From positions 183,840 to 247,839 of the forward strand of contig JAJCZH010000008.1 in NCBI GenBank assembly GCA_029262515.1: DNA of 64,000 nt, written 5' to 3'. Below are positions 6,906-44,868 of the stretch, one piece after another. Numbering within the stretch: the first letter of the stretch is position 1; every line of letters starts with the position of its first letter. The translations under genes were made by a program, and so were the position numbers. The notes beneath the pieces were generated by a model. It saw only the letters and a list, made by a program, of their open reading frames with translations. It did not search any database and was not told the DNA's origin. The DNA is from Deltaproteobacteria bacterium (lineage in GTDB: Bacteria; Desulfobacterota; GWC2-55-46; JADFVP01).

Positions 6906-7928
6906 TCAGTACTGTGAGAGAAAACGTAGATCGTTATCGAAAAAGAGGCGTATATCGTCTATGCCGTACTTGAGCATCGCCATGCGTTCAATACCGAGTC
7001 CAAAAGCAAAACCGGAGACCTTCTCCGGGTCGTACTTGACGGACTTGAAGACCTCGGGGTGGATCATACCGCTTCCGAGGACCTCGAGCCACCCGCTGCC
7101 CTTGCAGACCCTGCAGACAGCACTCTTGCCCTTGCAGATAACGCAACGTATATCGACCTCTGCGCTAGGCTCGGTAAAAGGGAAGAAACTCGGACGAAAA
7201 CGTACCTCAATATTTTCGCCGAAGAATGAGTGGAGAAAGTGGGTCAGGACGCCCTTTAAGTTGCTGAAGGTTACATTGGTATCGACCATAAAACCTTCAA
7301 CCTGATGGAACATCGGCGTGTGGGTTACGTCGGAGTCGCGTCTGTAAACGGTGCCAGGAGCGATAATACGAAGCGGCGGCGGGTGCTCTTCCATAACCCG
7401 AATCTGCACCGGTGACGTATGGGTCCGCAAGAGGACCTCTTCATTAATATAGAAGGTATCTTGCATGTCGCGGGCCGGATGGTCGCGCGGAATATTCAAG
7501 GCCTCGAAGTTGTAGTAATCGACCTCGACCTCGGGCCCTTCGGCAATGCCGAAACCGAGAGAGGCGAATATATCTTCAACCTCGTAGAGAACACGGGTGA
7601 CAGGGTGGATAGAGCCGAGAGAACGAGCGCGGCCCGGAAGCGTAACATCGAGCCGTTCGGTCTTTAACCTCTCGGCCTGCTCTGCGGCGTGGATACTGGC
7701 GAGGCGAGTCTCTATCTCGCTCTCAAGACTGGTCTTGACCGTATTTATAAACTCACCCGCCCTCTTTCTTTCGTCAACGGCAAGCGCACCGATGTCTTTG
7801 AAGAGACCCTGCAACACACCTTTTCTACCTAAATACTTCGACTTGACCGTAAGCAGAGAGCCCTTTACGCCTGACTTTTCAATCTCGGCGCGGGCTTCGT
7901 TCAGGAGTTCTTCAAGCCTCTCCCTCAT
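6906..7928 (-). CDS. pheS: phenylalanyl-tRNA synthetase alpha chain
   Basis: This is the 340-residue class II catalytic subunit. The N-terminal coiled coil, residues 1 to about 85, binds tRNA-Phe. Class II motif 2 is [22 protein letters not shown] and motif 3 is [10 protein letters not shown]-like ([21 protein letters not shown]). Four cysteines ([16 protein letters not shown]) lie in an insertion before motif 3; they are not in every PheS and could bind zinc. The start ATG overlaps the rplT stop by 4 nt (ATGA), indicating translational coupling. Confidence 0.97.
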
Positions 7929-8284
7929 GCGGCAAGGCTTTCCTTAGCTATATTTACCACGCGGGTGAATCCTGCCGGGTCTTTGACGGCCATGTCAGCT
8001 AGCACCTTACGGTCGAGCGAAACGTTGGCTTTAATGAGACCGTTGATAAGTCTCGAATACGTTATGTCATTAGACCTTGCGGCGGCATTGATACGGACTA
8101 TCCATAGGCGCCTGATTTCGCGCTTCTTTGTCTTACGGTGCGCATATGCGTAGCAGAGCGCCCTGTCTACCGCCTCTGTGGCTATACTGTAAAGACTACC
8201 TCTGGCACCCCTGTAACCCTTGGAGGCCTTCAGAACTTTTTTTCTCTTCTTGTTGGCGTGTACGCCCCTCTTTACTCTTGGCAT
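7925..8284 (-). CDS. rplT: 50S ribosomal protein L20
   Basis: This 119-residue basic protein starts [20 protein letters not shown] and has the [21 protein letters not shown] region typical of L20. L20 binds 23S rRNA early in 50S assembly and in many bacteria represses its own operon by binding the mRNA leader. It lies between rpmI and pheS in the conserved infC operon and its stop overlaps the pheS start. Confidence 0.98.
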
Positions 8285-8383: not shown

Positions 8384-8581
8384 TTAGGCGTACGGAATCA
8401 TCTTTCTTACGTTGCTGACATCGGCCTTATCAACCAGAACACCCTTGCCGAGCGTACGCTTGCGGTCGGTTCCCTTGGGCGTAAGTATGTGCCTGAGCCC
8501 TGATTTCCTGCGCTTTATCTTTCCTGTGCCGGTAAGCTTAAAACGCTTGGCCGCACCCCTGTGTGTCTTTATCTTCGGCAT
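8384..8581 (-). CDS. rpmI: 50S ribosomal protein L35
   Basis: This 65-residue, highly basic protein starts [20 protein letters not shown] and ends NVRKMIPYA, a standard L35. It sits between infC and rplT. The 190-bp gap from infC holds an inverted repeat (GGAAGA...TCTTCC) on the transcribed strand that could be part of an L20-type autoregulatory leader, by analogy only. Confidence 0.97.
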
Positions 8582-8773
8582 CTGTACTACCCTCTCATTT
8601 ACTTACTGTTTTTAACTATCTTAATAACCCGGTGGCAATCTCTACCGGACAGGCCGACACGGCCTTGGAAGAATCGGCAACTCATACTCTTCCAACAACC
8701 TCGGTTCTACGATTCAAAAATAGGCCCAATATCATAATTAGACCCCATATATCAAAAACAGGCACCGCCAGCC

Positions 8774-9313
8774 TTACTTTGCCTGTAACGGAGCGAGCAT
8801 CATCGTCATGTTTCTGCCTTCAAGCCGAGGGTGGACTTCTACCGTAGCAACATCCTTAAGCTCTTCCCCTACTCTCTTCAACTTCTCTCTTCCGAGTTCT
8901 GTATGGGTAATCTCACGCCCCCTGAACATAAGGATAACCTTCACCTTGTTACCGTCATCAAGGAACCTTTTGATGTTACGCACCTTGAACTGAAAGTCGT
9001 GCTCGTCGGTCTTTACTCTGAACTTCATCTCTTTTACTAGAATGACCGTCTGCTTCTTCTTTGCATCACGTGCCTTCTTCGACATCTGATACTTGTACTT
9101 GCCATAGTCCATAATACGACAGACAGGAGGCTTTGCAGTAGCAGCTACCTCGACAAGATCCAATCCCTTGTCTTCGGCCACAGTGATCGCATCCACAGTC
9201 TCCATAACACCAAGCTGCTCACCATCGGCATCAACAACCCTAACCTGAGGTACCCTGATCAATGCATTAATTCTTACCTGATCCTTTTTACCTCTTTCGT
9301 TATTCCTTGCTAT
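8774..9313 (-). CDS. infC: translation initiation factor IF-3, apparent AUA start
   Basis: IF-3 binds the 30S subunit, keeps subunits apart and rejects non-standard start codons. The protein has the N-domain (RINALIRVPQVRVVDADGEQ), linker and C-domain (FRGREITHTELG) in full. The track starts at TTG 9262, which would delete the conserved 'RIN..IR' beginning. Upstream in frame there is no ATG, GTG or TTG before a TGA. The reading frame instead opens at ATA 9313 (then ARNNERGKKDQVRIN), 7 nt after AGGGGGTG and overlapping the thrS stop as ATAG. An ATT at 9271 is the second choice. Non-AUG starts (AUU) are known for infC and allow self-repression by IF-3. Product is 179 aa, normal length. Confidence 0.93.
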   Translation of the reverse strand: MARNNERGKKDQVRINALIRVPQVRVVDADGEQLGVMETVDAITVAEDKGLDLVEVAATAKPPVCRIMDYGKYKYQMSKKARDAKKKQTVILVKEMKFRVKTDEHDFQFKVRNIKRFLDDGNKVKVILMFRGREITHTELGREKLKRVGEELKDVATVEVHPRLEGRNMTMMLAPLQAK

Positions 9314-11241
9314 GAAAGTACACCCCCTCGCGGTATTCTCTTTTGTTCTATAAGTTCAATAAATTCTTCCACTGCCATCGCATCCATTGCACCGGTCTCC
9401 TTGGAGCGCGGTGAAACGGAACCCATCTCTGTCTCCTTGTCTCCAATGACCAGAGAGTACGGAACCTTTTGTAACTCGGACTCCCTTATCTTGAAGCCGA
9501 GTTTTTCATTCCTTATATCAAGCTCCACCCTGAGTCCAGCCTCTTTGAGCCTTTTAGAGACCTCTTCGGCGTAGTCGTTGTTTCTATCGGTGACGGTTAA
9601 GATTACTACCTGTACAGGTGCGAGCCACAGAGGAAACGCGCCGGCGTAATGCTCTACAAGGCAGCCGAAGAAGCGTTCTAACGAACCCATCAGCGCCCGG
9701 TGTATCATTATCGGACGACTCTCGCCTCCATCTTCATCCCTGTAAGTAACGTTGAAGCGTTCAGGCAAGTTGAAGTCAACCTGTATTGTCGAACACTGCC
9801 ACGACCTGCCGATTACGTCCTTGATCTTTATATCGATCTTTGGACCATAAAAGACGCCTTCGCCGGGGTCTACCATATAATCGAGCCCGGAAGACTCAAG
9901 CGCGCCCTTCAGGGCGCCTTCTGCACGCGCCCAGTCGTCCAGGGAACCGACATACTTTTCCGGCCGTGTACTTAAGTATATATCAAAATCATTAAATCCA
10001 AAAGACTTTAATATGTAAAGGGTAAAATCGAGCACACCGCCTATCTCACCCTCAAGCTGACCAGGAGTGGTAAAGAGGTGGGCATCGTCCTGCGTAAAAC
10101 CCCGCACCCTCAAAAGACCGTGAAGAACACCTGAGCGTTCGTACCTATAGACCGTGCCGAGCTCGGCATACCGAATAGGCAGGTCGCGGTAGCTCCTAAG
10201 GTGCGACTTGTATATCTCTATATGGAACGGGCAGTTCATCGGCCTTACGATATACTCCTGCCCGTCCAGATCCATGGGAGAAAAAAGATTCTCCTGATAG
10301 AAGTCCCAGTGCCCGGACGTCTTCCAGAGATCCACACGCGCCAGGTGAGGTGTATAGATTATATCATAACCGGACCTTCTGTGCTCACTCCTCCAGAAAT
10401 CCTCTATAATGCCGCGAACCGTTGCACCTTTAGGGTGCCACAAAACAAGGCCGGAGCCTATGTCTTCGCTCGTGGAGAAGAGGTCGAGTTCGCGCCCGAG
10501 TTTTCTATGGTCGCGCTTTTTCGCTTCTTCGAGCCTCCTCAGGTGCTCTTTAAGTTCGGCCTTGGTGCCCCATGCGGTAGCATAGATCCTCTGGAGCATC
10601 CTGTTCTTCTCATCCCCGCGCCAGTACGCGCCTGCTGCTCCGGTGAGCTTAAAAGCCTGAATATAACCGGTACTCGGCAGATGCGGGCCGCGACAGAGAT
10701 CGGTAAAATTGCCCTGAGTATAGATGCCGACGGTGTCGTCCGTCAGTTCTTCTATAACCTCCTCTTTATAGACCTCTCCTGCCTCTTTAAAGTACTTAAG
10801 CGCCTCAGCCTTACCCATACTCTTCGGTTCAAAAGCATGGTTACCCTTGATTATCTCACGCATGCGAGCGTCGATCTTGTCGAGGTCTTCGGGTGTAAAA
10901 GGCTTCTCAACATCAAAATCGTAATAAAAACCATTATCTACAGTAGGGCCGATAGCCAGCTTGGCCTCTTCGAAAAGCGACTTTACGGCCTCGGCCATAA
11001 CATGGGCGGTAGAGTGGCGATAGATATCGAGCCCTTCCGGCGATTCGAGCAGAATCGGCTCTATCTCCACACTCTCTAACGTGGCATCGGGAATAGACCT
11101 CAGGTCTTTTGCAACACCATTTACCTTAAGAGCAACACTCTTTTTGAGAAGCTTCTTGTCAAACGTCTTTATTATTTCAAGAAAGCTCTCGCCTTGAGAG
11201 TACTCAACAACAGACCCGTCAGGGAATATAACATGCGGCAT
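9310..11241 (-). CDS. thrS: threonyl-tRNA synthetase
   Basis: This is a 643-residue class II synthetase. It has a TGS domain (residues 1-60), an editing domain with zinc-type histidines (YRHSTAHVMAEAV and LCRGPHLP), a catalytic core with MNCPFHIEIYKS and motif 2 RYERSGVLHGLLRVRGF, motif 3 PIMIHRALMGSLERF, and an anticodon-binding domain (PVQVVILTVTDRN). It heads the conserved thrS-infC-rpmI-rplT-pheS-pheT operon. Its TAG stop lies inside ATAG shared with the putative infC start. In E. coli thrS is autorepressed through a tRNA-like leader; I did not identify an equivalent in the 217 bp upstream. Confidence 0.97.
   Translation of the reverse strand: MPHVIFPDGSVVEYSQGESFLEIIKTFDKKLLKKSVALKVNGVAKDLRSIPDATLESVEIEPILLESPEGLDIYRHSTAHVMAEAVKSLFEEAKLAIGPTVDNGFYYDFDVEKPFTPEDLDKIDARMREIIKGNHAFEPKSMGKAEALKYFKEAGEVYKEEVIEELTDDTVGIYTQGNFTDLCRGPHLPSTGYIQAFKLTGAAGAYWRGDEKNRMLQRIYATAWGTKAELKEHLRRLEEAKKRDHRKLGRELDLFSTSEDIGSGLVLWHPKGATVRGIIEDFWRSEHRRSGYDIIYTPHLARVDLWKTSGHWDFYQENLFSPMDLDGQEYIVRPMNCPFHIEIYKSHLRSYRDLPIRYAELGTVYRYERSGVLHGLLRVRGFTQDDAHLFTTPGQLEGEIGGVLDFTLYILKSFGFNDFDIYLSTRPEKYVGSLDDWARAEGALKGALESSGLDYMVDPGEGVFYGPKIDIKIKDVIGRSWQCSTIQVDFNLPERFNVTYRDEDGGESRPIMIHRALMGSLERFFGCLVEHYAGAFPLWLAPVQVVILTVTDRNNDYAEEVSKRLKEAGLRVELDIRNEKLGFKIRESELQKVPYSLVIGDKETEMGSVSPRSKETGAMDAMAVEEFIELIEQKRIPRGGVLS
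9321..9328 (-). promoter_or_regulatory. Shine-Dalgarno that decides the infC ATA start
   Basis: AGGGGGTG on the minus strand lies inside the last codons of thrS, 7 nt before the ATA at 9313. It differs by one base from the ideal AGGAGGTG and is the only strong site near the required N-terminus of IF-3. Confidence 0.7.
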
Positions 11242-11458: not shown

Positions 11459-11533
11459 TGGTAGGCGCGGGCGGTTTCGAACCGCCGACCTCTTCCGTGT
11501 CAGGGAAGCGCTCTCCCACTGAGCTACGCGCCT
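11459..11533 (-). tRNA. tRNA-Val (anticodon GAC)
   Basis: The minus strand folds as a full cloverleaf. It has acceptor AGGCGCG/CGCGCCT, D-arm GCTCAGTGGGAGAGC, anticodon stem CTTCC/GGAAG around loop CTGACAC (anticodon GAC), T-arm GGCGG-TTCGAAA-CCGCC and encoded ACCA. Length is 75 nt. It lies upstream of thrS in the same orientation. Confidence 0.95.
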
Positions 11534-30937: not shown

Positions 30938-31390
30938 ATGAGAAATAAGATTATAATATTCCTGGCCACAGCCACCTATACAGGTTACGTACCCAAGGCC
31001 CCCGGCACGGTCGGCACGCTCTGGGGTGTTGTTATCGCATACTTTATCTCAGGACTCGGTCCAGTTCCGCAGGCGCTGATAATAACAGGCGTTCTTCTGC
31101 TATCTATCTACACCGCCGGAGAAGCCGCAAAGATCTTCAACCAGAAAGACCCGAGCAGGGTTACCATCGATGAAGTCTCCGGCGTGCTTTTCGCCTTCTT
31201 TCTCGTTCCGTTCACTCCGGTAAACGTTATTTTTGTATTCCTTCTTTTCCGGATATTTGATATTCTGAAACCCTGGCCGGCCTCAAAGATCGACAAAGAG
31301 CTCGGAGGTGGCGCAGGAATAGTGCTCGACGACGTTGCATCCGGCATTTATGTCAATATAATCGCACACATACTGCTTCAGGTACTCTAA
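30938..31390 (+). CDS. pgpA: phosphatidylglycerophosphatase A
   Basis: This is a 150-residue membrane enzyme that dephosphorylates phosphatidylglycerol phosphate. The family start YTGYVPKAPGTVGTLWGVVIAYFISG and the motif KDPSRVTIDEVSGVLFAFFLVP, with FRIFDILKPWPASKIDKELGGGAGIVLDDVASGIYVNI, are diagnostic. Acidic residues in DEVSG and DD bind Mg2+. Its TAA overlaps the ATG of the CinA-like gene by one base, implying coupling; thpR follows in the same chain. Confidence 0.96.
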   Translation: MRNKIIIFLATATYTGYVPKAPGTVGTLWGVVIAYFISGLGPVPQALIITGVLLLSIYTAGEAAKIFNQKDPSRVTIDEVSGVLFAFFLVPFTPVNVIFVFLLFRIFDILKPWPASKIDKELGGGAGIVLDDVASGIYVNIIAHILLQVL

Positions 31391-31926
31391 TGGGCAACGC
31401 CACGAAAAAGGGTCCGGCAATCTCGGCAGAAGAACGATTATCCCGCCTGCTCACAAACCTTGACGGGGTAAAACTTGCTGTGGCAGAGAGCTGCACCGGA
31501 GGACTCGTAGCGAGCCGCATAACCGATATTGCAGGAAGTTCCGCCTTCTTCGAAGGCGGCGTAATCGCCTACTCAAACGACCTTAAAAAGGGCCTGCTTG
31601 GCGTACGGGTTACCACTTTAAAGAATCACGGCGCCGTCTCTAAGGAGGTTGCCGCCGAGATGGCCTCCGGAATCGCAAAAAAAACAGGAGCAAACATAGC
31701 CATTTCTCTTACGGGTATTGCTGGGCCTGAAGGCGGTACAGAAGAGAAACCGGTTGGAACGGTCTGTATCGGAATCACTATCCGAACGGAAGTAAAAAAG
31801 AGTGGCGAGATTAAAGAAGCCAACTTCGTACGCCTCTTCAATTTTAAAGGTACGCGCAGAGCCATAAAACGGCAGAGCGCGACCGCCGCGCTCACCTCCT
31901 TGGCAGATTTTCTGGAGGAGCTATAA
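31390..31926 (+). CDS. CinA C-terminal domain protein (nicotinamide-nucleotide amidase, PncC-like)
   Basis: This 178-residue stand-alone CinA-C domain has KLAVAESCTGGLVASRITDIAGSSAFFEGGVIAYSNDLKKGLLGV, then SLTGIAGPEGGTEEKPVGTVCIGI. Ser/Tyr/Lys in AESCTGG and the following segments match the NMN deamidase active site known from PncC. It recycles nicotinamide mononucleotide to nicotinate mononucleotide for NAD. The MocF/COG1058 N-terminal domain of full CinA is missing, a common state. Its C-terminal GGAGGAG is the ribosome-binding site for thpR and its TAA lies in ATAA shared with the thpR start. Confidence 0.93.
   Translation: MGNATKKGPAISAEERLSRLLTNLDGVKLAVAESCTGGLVASRITDIAGSSAFFEGGVIAYSNDLKKGLLGVRVTTLKNHGAVSKEVAAEMASGIAKKTGANIAISLTGIAGPEGGTEEKPVGTVCIGITIRTEVKKSGEIKEANFVRLFNFKGTRRAIKRQSATAALTSLADFLEEL
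31914..31920 (+). promoter_or_regulatory. Shine-Dalgarno that decides the thpR ATA start
   Basis: GGAGGAG lies within the penultimate codons of the cinA-C gene, 2-5 nt before the ATA at 31923. No other strong site exists near the family's N-terminus, so it supports initiation at this non-standard codon. Confidence 0.7.
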
Positions 31927-32573
31927 GAGCCTTTATCGCAATACCGCTTCCGCCCGCCGTAACAGGGCAAATAAGCGGACTTCAGGCCTCTCTCAAAGGC
32001 ACTGGTGGTCGGCAAGAGACCGGGTTTAATAGAACAGAGCACTTCAAGGCCTCATGGGTCAAGACCGAGAATCTCCACCTGACGCTTAACTTTCTCGGAG
32101 AAATAACAGAACAAGAGGTTGAAAGAGTAACCGGCATTATGGAAGAGGTCTCCATAGGACTCTACCCGTTCGACCTTACCGTCGGAGGCCTTCAGGGGGT
32201 TCCTAACCTGAAGAGCCCAAAGCTTCTATGGCTCGGTTTTAATAATGCTACCAGGTGTACCGGAGGTATCGGTCTCGAAAAACTTAAGGAACTGAAACAG
32301 AGACTCGACCGCGAACTGGATAAAAGAGGTATAAGAGTAGAAAAAAGGGACTTCAAACCTCACCTGACGCTATGTAGAATAAGAGACAAAAAAGAGAGGC
32401 ACGCGGCAGGCAGACGTTTAGCAGGCATGACCAGAGATAAGTCAAATGAGATAATTAAAAAAGAGATAGACTTTACAGTAGACTCTTTCGTACTATTCAG
32501 TAGCAGGCTCAACCCGGGCGGAGCGCTCCACAGACCGATAGTCGTTGTACAGCTTAAAGGCCCGGCACCTTAA
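31923..32573 (+). CDS. thpR: RNA 2',3'-cyclic phosphodiesterase (LigT/ThpR), apparent AUA start
   Basis: This is a 2H phosphoesterase of 216 residues. Both catalytic motifs are present: HLTLNFLGE and HLTLCRIRD. The track's ORF begins at ATG 32139 and loses the first motif and half a domain, so it cannot be right. Reading upstream in frame gives RAFIAIPLPPAV, the exact family N-terminus, preceded by ATA (31923), which overlaps the cinA TAA as ATAA. GGAGGAG lies just before it. No ATG, GTG or TTG is available near that point. A single G-to-A change from ATGA would explain it, or the ATA is really used. The enzyme hydrolyses 2',3'-cyclic phosphates or 2'-5' linkages in RNA. Confidence 0.92.
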   Translation: MRAFIAIPLPPAVTGQISGLQASLKGTGGRQETGFNRTEHFKASWVKTENLHLTLNFLGEITEQEVERVTGIMEEVSIGLYPFDLTVGGLQGVPNLKSPKLLWLGFNNATRCTGGIGLEKLKELKQRLDRELDKRGIRVEKRDFKPHLTLCRIRDKKERHAAGRRLAGMTRDKSNEIIKKEIDFTVDSFVLFSSRLNPGGALHRPIVVVQLKGPAP

Positions 32574-42828: not shown

Positions 42829-44868
42829 CTAAACAGCCTCGTCACCCGACATGTACGCCGTGCGTCCAACAAGTAAAAGCTCAAGAATACCGGTAACATC
42901 GGCAACGAGCATGGTTCCTTCATCTCCAACATCGGTTGCGCCGGCCACACCGTCAACTCTCAATATCTTCGGAAGAGGTTTAACGACAACATCGAGCTCT
43001 TCGAGCAGCTTGTGCACTATAATGCAGAGCCTGTGCTCGGCGAGGCCAACAACGATGCCGTAGCAGGTATCGTTCTGCACACCGTTCTGTCTGTTTTGTA
43101 CCGACTCTTTACGGTAGAAGAACTCTCCTAGCCTGATGTACAAAATATCCCTGTCATTGACCTTTACGTACTCAGGGTCCTCATCTACGGTGGAGCTATG
43201 CAGTTCCGCAATTTCTATGACCGAGCTGAGCGGAATCGCGTACTGGGTTCCAAACTCTTCAACTATTAAGGCCTGAACAATGGCTAGGGTTATAGGTATC
43301 GTCAGGCTGAACTTCGTACCGGCTCCCTTGGACGTCTCAATATCTATAATACCGCTTAACCGGGTTATGTTCTCCTTTACGACGTCCATGCCGACTCCTC
43401 TGCCCGAGGTTGAACTTACGGAGTCTCTGGTTGTAAAACCAGGTTTGAAGATCAGTTCCAGAAGCTGGTGCCTGGTAAGCGTCGTGGCATCCTCGGTAGA
43501 GAGTATACCCTTTTCGAGCGCTTTTCTCTTTATAAGCTTCTCATCTATACCGACGCCGTCATCAATAACATCTATTACGACATGGTTGCCGGACTGAAAG
43601 GCCTTAAGCGATATAGTACCGTAACGCGGTTTGCCGAGCTTCTCCCTCTCTGAGGGATGTTCGAGGGCGTGATCAACGATATTCCTTATGATATGCATCA
43701 GCGGGTCGGCAAGCTCCTCGACTATAAGCTTATCTATCTCGGTATCACCCCCTGTGGTTTCGAGCCTGATCTCCTTACCCGTCTCTCTTGCCAGTTTGGT
43801 TATAAAGGTTTCAAAACGGTTGAAGAGCTGACCAATGGGAACCATCCTTATATCAAGCACAGAGTCACGAAGCTCACCGAACTTACGCTCAAGGTAAGTC
43901 TCTATTCTTGAAAGCTCAATACCGTAAAAAGAGTGCTTGGTATCGTTCTTAAGCTCAGCGCTCAGGCGCGCCACACTGGATTTCAGTACGCCCAGTTCAC
44001 TGACTATATTCATTATACTATCGAGCTTGTCTATGTCCACTCTGACGGTGTCCGAGACCCTGCGCAGGGTCTCGGGAGCCATCGGCGACTGAAGCGGTTC
44101 AACACCCTTTATTGATACCGGCTCCGAACCGGAAAGCGGTCCTGCAATGCGCCTGACTTCGACCGCGGCTATTTGTCCTGCAAGTTCTTTTATGCTGTTG
44201 TCATCATTTACCGTACCGATGAGGATATCGAAAGATATCATCTCCGGAACCGTCTCGGAGGATGGAAGAGTGGCGATAACTTCGGAGCTGGTTTTGAGCA
44301 GATCGATCAGAGCCGCATACCCCTTGTCAAAGCTGATAATAGGAAATCTAACGGCAACTATCAGGATATTCTTGGACTGTTTGAGGTTGTCTCTAAGCCT
44401 GTGGGCCTCATACTCGGTCAGCGTGGCAAGTATCTTCTTGTCTATATTGAGGTCGTCTTTCGGTTTCTTGACCTGACACGAACCGACGAGGTGAGCCTTA
44501 AGCTCTTGTACCGGAAGTGTAAAGTCTTCGGTGCCTCTGGAGGCTATTATACCGACTAGCATCTCATGGGCGCCCATTATATATCCGAGCAGATCATCGC
44601 TTAGGTTGACCCGGTCGAGCCGCAACATATCGAGGGTATCTTCGAGTGCATGGCTCAGAACAGCCATATCCTTAAAATCGTACAGGCCGGAGATGCCTTT
44701 GAGGGTATGTGCGGAGCGGAAGATCGAGTTCAACACGGCAGGGTCGATCAGACCTGCCTTAACGCCCTTGCCGAGCTTTAAGAGGTCGCGCCCCATGGAG
44801 TTGAGGATATCTTCGGCCTCAACCAAAAACTCTTTGAAGCGATCACCTTTTTTATTCCTTTTTACCAC
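42829..44868 (-). CDS. cheA: chemotaxis histidine kinase CheA
   Basis: This is a 679-residue hybrid-free CheA. The Hpt domain has phospho-accepting His54 (FRSAHTLKGISGLYDF), followed by a P2-like region, dimerisation helices (VDKLDSIMNIVSELGVLKSSVARL), an HATPase domain (IIRNIVDHALEHPSE, VIDDGVGID, STSGRGVGMDVVKENI) and a C-terminal CheW-like domain. It starts at GTG 44868. It phosphorylates CheB and a CheY encoded elsewhere. A perfect 24-bp palindrome lies 150 bp upstream of the start. Confidence 0.96.
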   Translation of the reverse strand: MVKRNKKGDRFKEFLVEAEDILNSMGRDLLKLGKGVKAGLIDPAVLNSIFRSAHTLKGISGLYDFKDMAVLSHALEDTLDMLRLDRVNLSDDLLGYIMGAHEMLVGIIASRGTEDFTLPVQELKAHLVGSCQVKKPKDDLNIDKKILATLTEYEAHRLRDNLKQSKNILIVAVRFPIISFDKGYAALIDLLKTSSEVIATLPSSETVPEMISFDILIGTVNDDNSIKELAGQIAAVEVRRIAGPLSGSEPVSIKGVEPLQSPMAPETLRRVSDTVRVDIDKLDSIMNIVSELGVLKSSVARLSAELKNDTKHSFYGIELSRIETYLERKFGELRDSVLDIRMVPIGQLFNRFETFITKLARETGKEIRLETTGGDTEIDKLIVEELADPLMHIIRNIVDHALEHPSEREKLGKPRYGTISLKAFQSGNHVVIDVIDDGVGIDEKLIKRKALEKGILSTEDATTLTRHQLLELIFKPGFTTRDSVSSTSGRGVGMDVVKENITRLSGIIDIETSKGAGTKFSLTIPITLAIVQALIVEEFGTQYAIPLSSVIEIAELHSSTVDEDPEYVKVNDRDILYIRLGEFFYRKESVQNRQNGVQNDTCYGIVVGLAEHRLCIIVHKLLEELDVVVKPLPKILRVDGVAGATDVGDEGTMLVADVTGILELLLVGRTAYMSGDEAV

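Follow-up and report, generated by a model that had tools for sequence, protein, structure and literature searches.

Several bacteria are known to begin infC, the gene for translation initiation factor IF-3, at a codon other than the canonical ones. The start is AUU in Escherichia coli and Bacillus subtilis (PMC1805508) and ATC in Streptomyces, where IF-3 is autoregulated (PMC5472188), and retapamulin profiling (Ribo-Ret) gives AUA for infC of Staphylococcus aureus (PMC13009471). Four-nucleotide overlaps between the stop codon of one gene and the start codon of the next are described, in the accessible text of a survey that defines them as ATGA or TGATG, as coupling termination and reinitiation tightly (PMC6728339). 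Such coupling was lowered by IF-3 overexpression in E. coli (Yoo & RajBhandary 2008), while other work finds that IF-3 is needed for reinitiation (both as summarised in the review PMC12548453); given these conflicting reports, an effect of IF-3 on reinitiation between thrS and infC could take either sign.

The window, i.e., the whole 64-kb stretch of DNA that was analysed, contains a minus-strand operon with the gene order thrS-infC-rpmI-rplT-pheS-pheT, in which pheS and pheT are named from their translations. The features around the thrS-infC junction are the following.

9310–11241, minus strand: thrS, threonyl-tRNA synthetase, 643 aa (TIGR00418, 730.7 bits)
9356–9358, minus strand: TGA, the last in-frame stop 5′ of infC (from the sequence)
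9321–9328, minus strand: Shine-Dalgarno (SD) sequence AGGGGGTG, within the coding end of thrS (predicted duplex −14.6 kcal/mol)
9311–9313, minus strand: ATA, predicted start codon of infC (ATA throughout, in 40/40 from the order and 13/13 from elsewhere in the class, with 0 changes across the tree)
9310–9312, minus strand: TAG, stop codon of thrS, sharing ATAG (9313–9310) with the infC ATA (from the sequence)
8774–9313, minus strand: infC, IF-3, 179 aa when read from ATA (TIGR00168, PF05198, PF00707, PDB IF-3 chains)
9269–9271, minus strand: ATT, Ile codon of the RIN motif, rival start (SD −7.6 versus −14.6 for ATA)
9260–9262, minus strand: TTG, first canonical codon, rival start and likely the automatic annotation (SD −3.9)
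8384–8581, minus strand: rpmI (L35), downstream of infC in the operon (PF01632)
7925–8284, minus strand: rplT (L20), downstream in the operon (PF00453)

On the minus strand, thrS ends with ...CCG CGA GGG GGT GTA CTT TCA TAG, and the infC frame across the same junction reads ...AGG GGG TGT ACT TTC ATA GCA AGG AAT AAC. The preliminary description of this locus had proposed that infC opens at the ATA at 9313 within the ATAG shared with the thrS stop, that AGGGGGTG is placed 7 nt before it, and that only non-canonical codons occur between the last in-frame TGA and the first TTG. All three points are borne out: the SD sequence occupies 9328–9321 and is separated from ATA by the 7-nt spacer TACTTTC, there is no ATG, GTG or TTG in the infC frame from TGA (9358–9356) to TTG (9262–9260), and translation from ATA (IARNNERGKKDQVRINALIRVPQVRV...) yields a complete IF-3 in an unbroken frame, with the RIN motif at residue 14, aligned to residue 14 of E. 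coli IF-3, and IF3_N from residue 15. The product matches TIGR00168 at 237.5 bits (cut-off 60), PF05198 at 109.9 and PF00707 at 123.2; it thus has both the IF3_N and IF3_C domains of the infC equivalog, and it matches IF-3 chains in the PDB down to E = 6.5e-52. Stop and start codon share nucleotides and the SD sequence lies inside the upstream gene, as in overlapping termination-reinitiation pairs, but the overlap takes the form ATAG (ATAA in some relatives) and not the canonical ATGA or TGATG. A canonical four-nucleotide ATGA overlap occurs in the same operon at the rplT/pheS junction (7928–7925, minus strand), in contrast to the ATAG junction.

The predicted RNA structure at the junction is unremarkable (z = −1.5). 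An Rfam search around the operon returned only a tRNA, and the L20 leader was not found. A tRNA-Val(gac) gene (11459–11533, minus strand) precedes thrS by some 220 nt in the same orientation, and the 192-nt gap between infC and rpmI (8582–8773, minus strand), which has no Rfam match, is a possible site for L20-type control.

The locus resembles that of E. coli in the gene order thrS-infC-rpmI-rplT, in a non-AUG AUH start with a good SD sequence right at the end of thrS, and in the position of RIN at residue 14. It differs in that the start is AUA instead of AUU and in that thrS and infC overlap, whereas in E. coli K-12 the thrS stop is 3 nt upstream (TAA GGT ATT); furthermore, autoregulation is proven for E. 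coli infC, while here we infer it. With S. aureus infC, it shares an AUA start preceded by an SD sequence, albeit in a different phylum and known here from the sequence alone, whereas initiation was measured in S. aureus; the available text of that report does not mention an overlap with thrS (PMC13009471). In Streptomyces, infC (ATC) and sigR (GTC) likewise have non-canonical starts and are repressed by IF-3, but the codons are different and sigR is a regulated target, not IF-3 itself (PMC5472188). The four-nucleotide stop/start overlap with an SD sequence inside the upstream gene is reminiscent of ATGA/TGATG reinitiation pairs (PMC6728339), but it combines AUA as the start with TAG as the stop, and it is not conserved.

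We located IF-3 in 40 of the 48 genomes of the order and in 13 further genomes of the class. In the other eight order genomes (G004, G007, G019, G025, G036, G041, G044 and G046), there was neither a complete IF-3 gene nor a full IF3_C match, also when searched with the Pfam model, likely due to assembly gaps. In each gene, every codon in frame from the last stop to RIN was ranked as a start by SD duplex energy, calculated with the standard 16S tail (anti-SD) in place of the 3′ end of this genome's own 16S rRNA. Exact-match scoring miscalled six order genomes, mostly because of G-U wobble in AGGGGGTG; these were resolved by duplex energy. The best-SD start codon is ATA in 40/40 order genomes and in 13/13 from the rest of the class, with duplex energies between −11.7 and −20.0 kcal/mol in the order (standard 16S tail), and relatives carry AGGAGGTGA or GGGGGTGA at the SD site. 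Most genomes of the order have a TGA in frame three codons 5′ of ATA (GGNGG-TGA-nnn-TTY-ATA-GCN-ARR), so that the start is tightly bounded. The comparison with relatives, suggested in the preliminary description, hence finds the ATA conserved, and neither of two observations that it held to count against this start, a canonical start in relatives or a frame error, was made: ATA is the best-SD start in 53 of 53 genomes, and its presence in all of these, together with the same layout in two same-genus relatives, excludes an assembly or frame error at 9313. As there is no canonical in-frame start before RIN, and an AUH codon with an SD sequence is conserved in its place, it appears close to certain that infC starts at AUA 9313.

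A maximum likelihood tree of IF-3 and the ThrRS C-terminus from the 53 genomes, in which deep branches are weakly supported, requires 0 changes of the infC start codon, compared to at least 15 changes of the conserved Ile codon at RIN+15 and at least seven changes of the overlap. In the order, the start site is ATA in 40/40 genomes, compared with 25/40 for RIN+15, the fully conserved Ile that follows (Fisher p = 1.2e-5), and the same test restricted to the 23 genomes without detected overlap (one of them undetermined) gives p = 4.5e-4; both p-values ignore relatedness, for which reason the change counts on the tree are given. The synonymous argument is slightly weakened by the fact that ATA is already the commonest Ile codon of the order (~61% in thrS plus infC). 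That ATA is the majority Ile codon in thrS and infC of the order, despite a third-position GC of ~0.69, is an unusual combination. Outside the class, there was no significant link between an ATA start and ATA codon use (p = 0.11).

The pattern extends beyond the class. Of 57 infC loci from the wider phylum, sampled at roughly one per family, 26 have ATA as the best start, 20 have ATC, eight ATT and three CTG; none has ATG, GTG or TTG. A set of 74 loci from mixed phyla has ATA as the best start in 30, ATC in 24 and ATT in 13, along with seven others that are less certain. By these counts, non-canonical AUH starts are the rule for infC, with AUA as one common form.

The explanation to which we give high confidence is that infC has a class-fixed AUA start at 9313, positioned by its SD sequence and self-repressing through IF-3, to which the overlap with thrS possibly adds reinitiation. 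Codon, SD sequence, frame, conservation and independence from the overlap are evident from the sequences. Initiation with fMet at AUA, self-repression by IF-3 and any coupling are read by analogy with other bacteria. The strong SD sequence would position AUA 9313 in the ribosomal P site, where the initiator fMet-tRNA would read it with a third-position mismatch. As with AUU in E. coli, IF-3 would destabilise 30S complexes on such a codon and, for that reason, limit its own synthesis; the lowered initiation at AUA would thereby provide homeostatic control of IF-3. In this genome, ribosomes finishing thrS would stop on top of the infC AUA, and some of them may reinitiate there, adding to or replacing de novo initiation, a step that is perhaps also dampened by excess IF-3. 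The AUA is thus likely a self-repression switch of IF-3, a variant of the E. coli AUU. As proposed in the preliminary description, the ATA within the overlap can be seen, by analogy, as a version of the E. coli switch; an AUA start for infC had, however, already been reported in S. aureus (PMC13009471).

One could also suppose that the functional core is the ATAG overlap itself, with the overlapping TAG forcing AUA and most infC translation coming from ribosomes that have terminated on thrS. When the stop is TAG or TAA, a four-nucleotide overlap is compatible with NTA starts only and could by itself fix bases 2 and 3 of the start codon. The overlap is exact in this genome and in both same-genus relatives, it is rare outside the class (only 1/55 and 1/46 loci), and overlaps of this length couple termination to reinitiation tightly elsewhere (PMC6728339). 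Of the 39 order genomes in which the thrS stop could be located, 17 have the overlap, as ATAG in 15 and ATAA in two. In the other 22, the stop is further upstream, by 9 to 283 nt and in many cases by over 50 nt, but each of them retains ATA; elsewhere in the class, where the overlap is found in 3/13, the 10 genomes without it have ATA too. The strong SD sequence is also kept where the overlap is absent, implying that de novo initiation is sufficient there. Taken together, we consider it unlikely that the overlap is the core of the arrangement; judged by these genomes, the infC ATA is independent of it.

Most of the early branches in the order include overlap carriers (in a tree with weakly supported deep branches), suggesting that the overlap is probably ancestral in the order and has been lost repeatedly. 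Since the overlap comes and goes while the ATA stays, the codon-based feedback would be the conserved part, and the stop/start coupling of thrS and infC a possible optional layer. The coupling of IF-3 to ThrRS translation, put forward in the preliminary description, therefore finds little support as a general principle: the overlap is not maintained among relatives (17 of 39 order genomes and 3 of the 13 others in the class have it, and it changed at least seven times), and ATA is unchanged without it.

A search of the window for other ATAR overlaps brought up a second gene with an apparent ATA start.

31923–32573, plus strand: LigT/thpR-type 2′,3′-cyclic phosphodiesterase, apparent ATA start, next to an upstream CinA-domain gene (PF02834 and PF02464 for the pair)

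Its ATA overlaps the stop codon of an upstream CinA-domain gene (31390–31926) as ATAA and is preceded by GGAGGA, and the window gene lacks any canonical codon ahead of its N-terminal motif. Of 30 order genomes, 20 carry ATA at the corresponding Met site, and in 18 of the 30 no canonical codon occurs from the preceding in-frame stop to the site (15 ATA, two ATC, one ACG), with the in-frame stop just two codons upstream of the site in three of these 18. Outside the order, a canonical codon stands at the site, or only a little upstream of it, in all readable members. In much of this order, LigT/thpR apparently starts at ATA. That AUA starts in the order mark a small IF-3-sensing set (infC, LigT/thpR), often with ATAR overlaps, in which the IF-3 level would control both de novo initiation and reinitiation, is a speculative extension that we regard as improbable.

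LigT/thpR, apparently AUA-started both here and in a large part of the order, might also indicate that AUA is an ordinary start codon of this lineage, used by many genes, and that infC is not specially regulated. An ATAR overlap as such is unremarkable, given that 14 of the 61 TAR stops of long ORFs in the window have an A immediately before them. Among the 2,297 ATA triplets on both strands of the window, only the infC start and one more have both at least 100 open codons and SD pairing as strong as −14.6 kcal/mol; the other one, at 43737 (minus strand), is located deep inside a long gene and was rejected as a start. An ATA near infB was not convincing either. In a genome scan of 20 stretches plus the window (460 kb, 385 predicted genes), infC alone stands out as a clear gene whose sole start candidate is a strong-SD ATA, and no SD enrichment is seen at ATA (0.05) of the kind seen at ATG (0.21), TTG (0.19) and GTG (0.11). 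General use of AUA as a start codon is therefore very improbable.

There is scarcely any probability left for an IF-3 that begins at TTG 9262 (or at ATT 9271) and is shorter for lack of the N-terminal tail. In favour of it, the infC frame has its first canonical codon at this TTG, and many relatives of one family have ATG at that site. But the site reads CTT in one same-genus genome (G002/L003), CTC in a same-family genome and AGG, AAC or GCT elsewhere (two of the relatives with these five codons being of the same family), the SD sequence is weak (−3.9), and the protein would lose RIN and the start of IF3_N. The ATT at 9271, regarded as a competitor in the preliminary description, is present as described, but it has the weaker SD sequence (−7.6) and gives way to GTA, GTC, ACT and others in relatives.

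AUH starts of infC, including AUA, were already known; the class-wide fixed AUA with an optional ATAG overlap is a lineage-specific version of the E. coli feedback. Gene finders restricted to ATG, GTG and TTG will misplace the infC start here, and overlap surveys restricted to ATGA and TGATG, the definition given in the available text of PMC6728339, will miss junctions of the ATAG type. The overlapped and non-overlapped operons form a natural series in which start-codon feedback and translational coupling are experimentally separable. Across a class of mostly uncultivated bacteria, what appears to be a self-limiting non-AUG start of IF-3 has been fixed as AUA, and it is kept separately from the stop/start overlap with thrS.
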